A stretch of 64,000 nt of DNA from Verrucomicrobiales bacterium (GTDB taxonomy: Bacteria; Verrucomicrobiota; Verrucomicrobiia; Limisphaerales; UBA11358). The notes below the pieces were generated by a model, which was given only the letters and a program-made list of their open reading frames with translations, searched no databases and was not told the origin of the DNA. The stretch lies in NCBI GenBank assembly GCA_028712475.1, contig JAQTQB010000001.1, positions 372,001-436,000 of the forward strand, in the 5' to 3' direction. The position numbers and the translations under genes are program-made. Of the stretch, positions 13,836 through 15,127 are shown piece after piece. How positions within the stretch are numbered: position 1 is the first letter of the stretch; every line of letters starts with the position of its first letter.

Positions 13836-14393
13836 ATGGCAACAGCAGGTGATCTTCGACGCGGCATGGCAATCAATTATAACGGCGACATTTCCGTGGT
13901 GCTGGACATGCAGCACCGCACGCCGGGCAACCTCCGCGCGTTTGTGCAGGCGACGCTCCGCAGCATCCGCACCGGCAAATCGTCGGACGTGCGCTTCAGC
14001 TCGACCGAAAAAATCGAGCCGGTGCCGATGATCACGACGAAGATGGAATTCAGCTACAAGGACGGCAAAGATTTTGTTTTCACCAATCCGGAAAATTACG
14101 AGACGGTCACGCTCTCGGCGGAACTGGTCGGAGACGACAAAAATTATCTCGTGGAAAATGCGCCGGTGACGGTGACGTTCGTCGAGGACAAGGCGGTTTC
14201 CATCGAACTGCCGTCGAATGTGATTTTGACCGTGACCGACGCGCCCGAAGGCGTGCGCGGCGATTCCGCCAACAACGTGCAGAAGGCCATCATCATGGAA
14301 ACCGGCATCACGGTGCAGGCGCCGCTGTTCATCAAGACCGGCGAGAAGATCAAGATTGATACGCGCACCGGCAAATACATGGAACGGGCGTGA
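13836..14393 (+). CDS. efp: Elongation factor P
   Basis: 185 residues, the normal three-domain length. EF-P binds between the P and E sites and relieves stalling at polyproline. The N-terminal KOW-like domain, the OB domains and the C-terminal signature (VQAPLFIKTGEKIKIDTRTG) are intact. The domain I loop reads HRTPGNLRAFVQ, so where E. coli has PGKGQAF with modified Lys34 this protein has Asn32 (PGNLRAF) and an Arg two positions later. Thus the usual lysine for beta-lysylation is missing and no EpmA, EpmB or EarP gene is nearby. A stem-loop terminator follows the gene. Confidence 0.95.
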   Translation: MATAGDLRRGMAINYNGDISVVLDMQHRTPGNLRAFVQATLRSIRTGKSSDVRFSSTEKIEPVPMITTKMEFSYKDGKDFVFTNPENYETVTLSAELVGDDKNYLVENAPVTVTFVEDKAVSIELPSNVILTVTDAPEGVRGDSANNVQKAIIMETGITVQAPLFIKTGEKIKIDTRTGKYMERA

Positions 14394-14532: not shown

Positions 14533-14748
14533 ATGAGAATAACCATCGAACTTGATGCTGAAAACATGCGGCGGATTCAGAAGATCACCGGCCAAAAGAA
14601 GAAGTCGCCCGCCGTGAGCCGTGCGTTGTCCGAATTCATTCATCAACACCAAAGGCGCCAGTTCATTGAGCGGGCGCTGTCCGGCCAGACGGATTTTTCA
14701 CTGACCAACGAGGAATTGGAAACCCGCGACGTGTATGAAGCTCGTTGA
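14533..14748 (+). CDS. vapB: VapB-type antitoxin
   Basis: 71 residues. The N terminus MRITIELDAENMRRIQKITG followed by a basic helix looks like a ribbon-helix-helix DNA-binding domain, and the C-terminal half (FSLTNEELETRDVYEAR) would wrap the toxin. It overlaps the downstream PIN toxin by 14 bases, the standard vapBC arrangement in which the antitoxin is made first and the complex represses its own promoter. Confidence 0.8.
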   Translation: MRITIELDAENMRRIQKITGQKKKSPAVSRALSEFIHQHQRRQFIERALSGQTDFSLTNEELETRDVYEAR

Positions 14749-15127
14749 CACGTCCGCCTGGGTGGAATTTTTGCGGCGCAAAGGCGACGCGAAGGTGAAG
14801 CACTCGGTTGCCCGCCTGCTTCAAGCAGATGAGGCTGCCTACACGTGCCCGGTCCGGTTTGAACTGTTGAGCGGCGCGAAACCCGATGAAGAAGATGATC
14901 TGGAACAGGCCTTGGCATTGGCCCAGAACTACCAGTTTGAGCCGGATGACTGGCGTCAAGCAGCCTTGCTGGAACGCCGTCTCCGGGCAAAAGGACTGAC
15001 TATCCCCCGCAACGATCTTTTTGTCGCAGTGGTCGCCATTCGCGCCCGGATGCCGGTCGTGTGTCGTGACAAGCATTTTGATGCGATCAAGATGATTGTC
15101 AGCGAACTAAAAGTTGAACAAGCGTAG
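14735..15127 (+). CDS. vapC: VapC-type PIN-domain toxin
   Basis: 130 residues. PIN-domain acids are in place: Asp5 in LVDTSAWVEF, Glu43 in CPVRFELLSG, Asp94 in IPRNDLFVAVVA and Asp112 in VCRDKHFDAIK. VapC toxins are magnesium-dependent RNases that cut tRNA or rRNA. The start overlaps the antitoxin gene. All four metal ligands being present argues for an active toxin. Confidence 0.88.
   Translation: MKLVDTSAWVEFLRRKGDAKVKHSVARLLQADEAAYTCPVRFELLSGAKPDEEDDLEQALALAQNYQFEPDDWRQAALLERRLRAKGLTIPRNDLFVAVVAIRARMPVVCRDKHFDAIKMIVSELKVEQA

Follow-up and report, generated by a model that had tools for sequence, protein, structure and literature searches.

Asparagine in place of the modified lysine in the elongation factor P loop of Limisphaerales

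Elongation factor P (EF-P), which eases translation of consecutive prolines, is usually described as needing a modified lysine or arginine at the tip of its loop. In a window of 64,000 nucleotides from a Limisphaerales bacterium, which is the whole stretch of DNA analyzed here, the initial annotation reported an EF-P with asparagine at the place of this lysine and no clear arginine-type loop, and proposed that the protein either works unmodified or uses the arginine two places further on in a new way. The question raised by this locus is how an EF-P with such a tip could act, and whether the genome encodes a known enzyme that would modify it.

The EF-P gene and its loop

The gene and the parts of its loop are as follows:

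13836–14393, + strand: efp, elongation factor P, 185 aa; ATG start; the sole EF-P match in the genome
13914–13949, + strand: HRTPGNLRAFVQ, residues 27–38, the invariant segment holding the beta3–beta4 loop, from column conservation
13920–13940, + strand: seven-residue loop TPGNLRA, residues 29–35, lying between strands 18–28 and 36–43 of the predicted model
13929–13931, + strand: codon for Asn32, which occupies the position of E. coli Lys34, from translation and alignment
13935–13937, + strand: codon for Arg34, which occupies the position of E. coli Gln36, a candidate basic contact

E. coli positions follow the numbering of E. coli EF-P, in agreement with P32/K34/G35/Q36 in the main text of PMC6544042.

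The product of efp carries the three Pfam EF-P domains (PF08207, PF01132 and PF09285; KOW-like, OB and C-terminal, respectively) and exceeds the cut-offs of two NCBIfam EF-P models, TIGR00038 (209.6 versus 185.8 bits) and NF001810, but stays below those of the EfpL/YeiP models (NF003392, 134.1 versus 216; TIGR02178, 134.5 versus 264.05). The best solved relatives by sequence are the EF-Ps 6RK3/6RJI, 1YBY and 6S8Z, titled as S. aureus, Clostridium thermocellum and Corynebacterium glutamicum, respectively, and the nearest named relatives belong to Verrucomicrobia subdivision 3/Limisphaerales. The structure predicted from an alignment of 25 sequences has a mean pLDDT of 86.2 and a pTM of 0.69 and reaches TM-scores of up to 0.81 against solved EF-Ps; two of the five models were poor (54.1 and 49.9), and the prediction is usable for the fold and the loop length, not for side-chain contacts. 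The gene thus encodes the housekeeping EF-P of this bacterium, a member of Limisphaerales (Verrucomicrobia subdivision 3).

A second, lysine-bearing EF-P covering for this protein was considered and rejected, as the genome has one EF-P match only. Across the searched genomes, an EF-P match was found in 94/97, two genomes of 0.9 Mb also have one, and G030 (69% complete) has only a second, Gln-tipped type. A further EF-P-like protein of this kind is present in 12/97 genomes (13 matches; L188–L199 and L242); 12 of the 13 matches show the Gln-tipped loop SGTAQT[RK]H and the remaining one (G040) is cut before the loop, and the three paralogues that were scanned fall under the TIGR00038 cut-off and far under the EfpL cut-offs.

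In the gap-free alignment to the S. aureus EF-P 6RK3 (HRTPGNLRAF versus HVKPGKGSAF), Asn32 replaces lysine, so that translation and alignment both bear out the reading of the Lys34 counterpart as asparagine. The loop of the predicted model has the canonical length of seven residues and is not lengthened as in EfpL/YeiP. The lysine type of EF-P, like the Bacillus 5-aminopentanol type, has Lys at position 34, where Asn32 stands here; the EarP type has an arginine tip and no proline two places before it, whereas the present loop combines an asparagine tip with Pro30, and the doubt first expressed about an arginine-type loop was thus justified. Compared with the lysine-type EF-Ps that are accompanied by EpmA, in E. 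coli and in other classes of Verrucomicrobiota, the fold, the seven-residue loop and the PG before the tip are the same, but the tip is asparagine, EpmA is not found and HRT takes the place of F-x-K before PG.

Conservation and history of the loop

When verrucomicrobial EF-Ps were aligned, as the initial annotation had suggested, the core RTPGNLRAF proved common to 110/110 Limisphaerales loci (L001–L110); two sets among these (L002–L030 and L031–L110) share some genomes, and the distinct proteins number 94, down to about 72% identity. The alignment of these 94 proteins has 181 columns, of which 48 do not vary; the longest unbroken stretch of such columns is HRTPGNLRAFVQ, with 12, a length reached by none of 20,000 column shuffles, a rough yardstick in that the shuffle ignores relatedness and domain structure. 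Decay or sequencing error as the source of the Asn tip is ruled out, because the loop is invariant in 94 distinct proteins. The same type of loop occurs in three loci (L079, L100 and L103) titled as Akkermansia muciniphila metagenome-assembled genomes; as the loop is of the Limisphaerales type, these titles are probably wrong.

The phylum-wide set of loops covers 199 loci, equal to 182 distinct proteins. Asparagine tips are found in 133 of them (126 PGNLR[AG], 4 PGNKR[AG], 2 PPNNAS and 1 PPNLTS), all with Pro at position 32 in E. coli numbering, and arginine tips in 8 (4 PPRMAS, 3 QGRQAG and 1 PGRRMA). Lysine tips are found in 29, comprising 25 canonical loops (24 KPGKG and one RPGKG) and 4 in an HRT context, and the Gln-tipped paralogues account for 12. 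Arginine two places after the tip is present in 130/133 Asn-tip, 0/8 Arg-tip and 1/4 HRT-context Lys proteins, the three Asn-tip proteins that lack it being the two PPNNAS and the one PPNLTS.

In a tree of 112 rows, made by a quick method with the loop columns left out and having many open forks and a midpoint root, a single 75-row group (SH-aLRT 96) unites the Asn rows (63), the Arg rows (8) and the HRT-context Lys rows (4); the canonical Lys rows (25) and the Gln rows (12) stand on the other side. The loop departs from the canonical Lys loop at more positions than the tip: the differences from the canonical-Lys proteins to this group in which both sides reach at least 80% consensus include 27 F→H, 29 K→T, 32 K→N and 37 Y→V, among others. 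The four tip states need 8 changes on the tree and the Asn label alone needs 7, and because the starred branches force at least 3 of the latter, a single origin of the Asn tip is not established. We infer an early replacement of lysine near the base of the class, which we take to be Verrucomicrobiae, followed by later arginine tips. The few HRT-context Lys states (genomes G333, G100, G049 and G084, of which G100 belongs to the phylum and is not listed in the class) may have been either retained or regained, and the tree fits both.

Independent contrasts between the Asn tip and the +2 arginine gave three supported pairs, which are too few to reach significance; among these three, the other trait changed in the matching direction in an average of 2.3 and never in the opposite one. 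It is hypothesized that positive charge sits at either position 34 or position 36 in E. coli numbering, and this stays a hypothesis because of the PPNNAS and PPNLTS exceptions and because only three contrasts are supported.

Four genomes, drawn from two families within the class, encode the EF-Ps with PPRMAS loops (L142–L145), and no EarP match was obtained in them in a search that had no positive control. An arginine tip with proline two places before it, as in PPRMAS, is rare in print, at 2.33% in the main text of PMC6544042.

Modification enzymes and an orphan aminomutase-like protein

The modification enzymes EpmA, EpmB and EarP were searched for in 80 Verrucomicrobiota genomes, all with a known tip (22 canonical-Lys, 4 altered-loop Lys and 54 non-Lys); many of them are incomplete, and the genome of the window is 97.95% complete. 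EpmA was found in 20/22 canonical-Lys genomes. In 16 of these it is over the cut-off, which was exceeded in no other genome of the 80, and all 16 come from other classes; in four (G219, G368, G359 and G208) it lies just under the cut-off (270–281 versus 286.9 bits), in ORFs of 319–357 aa beside efp. The distance between EpmA and efp is at most about 210 bp in 19/20 genomes, and in G254 EpmA is on another contig. In the 54 non-Lys genomes and the 4 altered-loop (HRT-context) Lys genomes, there was no EpmA match over the cut-off, and in one non-Lys genome, G094 (85% complete), the matches to the EpmA model are mostly fragmentary and the negative result is weak. The genome of the window likewise gave no EpmA match over the cut-off; the model hit nothing there but LysRS (633 aa) and another ORF resembling a class II synthetase (614 aa). 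Two canonical-Lys genomes stand apart, with no EpmA found in G287 and a fragment only in G217; this fragment (G217:C1:667620-667934) is a C-terminal piece of EpmA with an in-frame TGA, either a pseudogene or an assembly error. In the LysRS of the window's genome (L208:5778-7679, + strand, contig G000:C22), an insertion of about 100–140 residues lies inside the catalytic domain, and a similarly split match was seen in G011, G032, G042 and G282.

The EpmB model TIGR03821 had a match in 79/80 genomes, none over the cut-off, and no match in G126. Two genomes were tested further, that of the window and G132; in both, the matched protein resembles lysine 2,3-aminomutase over its full length and carries a LAM_C domain, and so is not EpmB. 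EarP was matched in 0/80 genomes at E values up to 0.001, with no control genome matched either, so that the search by itself does not prove absence; at E values up to 10, none was found in the genome of the window, and two control genomes were matched, both below the cut-off. The search for epmA, epmB and earP in the genome itself, which the initial annotation had named as a check, thus found no known modification enzyme for this loop, the EarP part having no positive control.

Meanwhile, the TIGR03821 search revealed a KamA-type radical SAM protein in 53/54 non-Lys genomes (E 1e-72 or better, far under the EpmB cut-off), including the two 0.9-Mb genomes, the only non-Lys genome without a match being G126. 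Two of these proteins were identified further:

L208:8866-10110, − strand, contig G000:C22 of the window's genome: full-length lysine 2,3-aminomutase-like protein
L211:5111-6373, − strand, 0.9-Mb genome G132: full-length lysine 2,3-aminomutase-like protein

Both are closest to the lysine 2,3-aminomutase AblA, at 499.6 and 477.1 bits, respectively, under the cut-off of 525.4. The protein of the window's genome was matched to 2A5H and keeps Asp at chain positions 293 and 330 by hand count, which we take to be the lysine-selecting residues. Its possible partner AblB, the beta-lysine acetyltransferase that would yield N-acetyl-beta-lysine, exceeds the cut-off in 5/80 genomes and in 0/54 non-Lys genomes.

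In the genome of the window, LysRS stands beside the aminomutase-like gene, and a meaningful pair was considered. In G045 and G033 the two genes lie on separate contigs, in G012 the distance between them is about 14 kb, and the adjacency is taken as chance because of this separation. Conserved neighbors of the aminomutase-like gene were sought in 18 loci, the best recurring in 3. In G132, the gene adjoins SctU-, SctT- and SctR-like type III secretion export genes (L211:6415-8258 and L211:8614-9276).

As neighbors of efp, the window carries a gene of the NrdR type, an ORF with a PIN domain and the gene of a PEP-utilizing enzyme. The PIN-domain ORF (window 14735–15127) lies between efp and the gene of the PEP-utilizing enzyme and is possibly the toxin of a toxin–antitoxin pair. 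In a survey of 80 efp loci, some with flanks cut by contig ends, no dedicated modification gene recurs beside efp, the commonest true neighbors occurring in 25 and 19 loci. Larger clusters (41 and 38 loci) were rejected as neighbors, as by position they are ORFs lying over efp itself.

Proposed working of the loop

It is fairly probable that the Asn-tipped EF-P works without the usual post-translational extension, through an adapted loop. In the proposed mechanism, a lineage spanning the class would have replaced the tip lysine by asparagine, or by arginine in some branches, with the beta-lysylation ligase EpmA missing. The EF-P would bind the ribosomal E site and steady the P-site prolyl-tRNA like other EF-Ps, without the extension, whose job the rebuilt loop HRT-PG-N-L-R-AFVQ would take over. 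Arg34 probably supplies the positive charge in the unmodified loop, where it could give a cationic contact to the CCA end of the tRNA or to 23S rRNA. The first suggestion, that the protein works unmodified, is consistent with the data, and the searches for EpmA, EpmB and EarP, the last with no positive control, turned up no known enzyme that would modify this loop. The second, that the downstream arginine is put to a new use, agrees with the 130/133 and 0/8 counts for Asn and Arg tips, but falls short of significance with three supported contrasts.

There are precedents for parts of this mechanism. It has been reported that Arg32 of Thermus EF-P contacts C75 and 23S rRNA phosphates (main text of PMC2821294). 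The Arg-type EF-Ps without EarP described for Thermus, Deinococcus and Borrelia (main text of PMC4739656) share with the present protein the lack of EarP and a basic loop residue, but carry the arginine at the tip itself, and here it stands two residues later. A finding that speaks against the mechanism comes from E. coli, where Volkwein et al. saw no reporter activity for EF-P with K34 replaced by A, M, N or Q (main text of PMC6544042). Asparagine alone is thus insufficient in the E. coli loop, because the K34N protein is inactive.

The loop of actinobacterial EF-P keeps lysine. The protein is reportedly unmodified (Pinheiro 2020, cited in PMC11611912). Both this EF-P and EfpL are said to function unmodified through the design of the loop (main text of PMC11611912), as proposed here for the Asn loop; EfpL differs in its lengthened loop with an arginine tip, and the efp product is well under the EfpL cut-offs.

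A new modification of Asn32 or Arg34, carried out by an enzyme outside the known families, is an unlikely alternative that would account for an invariant loop, as expected of an enzyme target, and for the inactivity of E. coli K34N (PMC6544042, main text); the KamA-type match in 53/54 non-Lys genomes, with neither EpmA nor AblB over the cut-off, indicates in addition that an orphan product may exist. Against it, no gene recurs beside efp (the top true neighbor in 25/80 loci, with flanks partly cut), the Asn loop is found in two 0.9-Mb genomes, which would leave little room for a special pathway, the tip residue changes among Asn, Arg and Lys inside the group, a variation that an enzyme specific for one residue would be expected to oppose, and G126 has no KamA-type match. 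A link between the KamA-type product and EF-P is speculation, and it is highly improbable that the class swapped beta-lysylation for a new modification of the asparagine or the +2 arginine fed by the orphan lysine 2,3-aminomutase-like enzyme.

An EF-P that works unmodified can be set beside the use of polyproline. The ValRS of the genome retains the PPP motif VIPPPNVTG. In small, uncurated samples of the longest ORFs, taken as predicted proteins of at least 200 aa with the expectation from within-protein shuffles, PPP was observed 17 times versus 9.3 expected in the genome of the window (G000; 156 proteins, 282 kb, GC 0.58) and 18 versus 10.7 in G236, another genome with an Asn tip (108 proteins, GC 0.62), and 6 versus 4.0 and 3 versus 3.9 in two Lys genomes with EpmA (GC 0.45 and 0.40, respectively). 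The corresponding PP pairs were 204 versus 166 (G000) and 138 versus 159 (G236) in the Asn-tip samples, and 80 versus 87 and 54 versus 79 in the two Lys genomes. PPP is not avoided in the sampled Asn-tip proteins; for PP, one of these samples falls slightly short of expectation.

It is decidedly doubtful that this EF-P is barely active and that polyproline stalls are tolerated or relieved mainly by ABCF factors of the Uup/YfmR type. The genome has three ABCF-domain matches over the cut-off, which could carry part of the rescue, and resolution of ribosomal stalling by EF-P and the ABCF ATPases YfmR and YkpA/YbiT is the subject of a paper (PMC11381351), but invariance over a run of 12 residues and in 48/181 columns would not be retained by a factor in decay, nor would such a factor be expected in 94/97 genomes, one of them with the second type only, and in two genomes of 0.9 Mb. 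That a known pathway acts through an undetected EpmA, EarP or 5-aminopentanol route is scarcely credible even with many incomplete genomes and an EarP search lacking a positive control, as EpmA and the Bacillus route (YmfI) need lysine, EarP needs arginine at the loop tip, and the EpmA search detected the enzyme in 20/22 canonical-Lys genomes and 0/54 non-Lys genomes. Proline, which stands here at the P32 place, is moreover almost absent from the Arg-type loops in print (PMC6544042, main text).

The Asn-tip type of EF-P is itself already known and has stood in print at about 2.2% since 2010. For organisms without the yjeA/yjeK (EpmA/EpmB) pair, Bailly and de Crecy-Lagard reported that the tip may be Arg, Met, Asn or Gln, with Asn in 2.2% of the organisms lacking yjeA/yjeK (PMC2821294); Volkwein et al. 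found it in 2019 in 2.23% of 1166 sequences, with P32 in 100% (PMC6544042); and it was mentioned in 2024 (PMC11611912), in a paper that names the Verrucomicrobia for EfpL. The protein described here has the same Asn at 34, Pro at 32 and a genome in which EpmA was not found, like the organisms without EpmA of the first two papers, but these report percentages only, and their main-text passages link these to no taxon, consensus of the loop or mechanism. The literature searched, which took in few subscription journals, contained no study devoted to EF-P loops in Verrucomicrobia; nor did it describe a loop invariant throughout the order, an absence of EpmA to match, or the orphan KamA-type match in non-Lys genomes.

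An EF-P lineage in which the Asn loop was kept through deep divergence, EpmA is not found and PPP is in use amounts to a natural test of the purpose of the modification, and it may show how the loop or the ribosome makes EF-P modification unnecessary.
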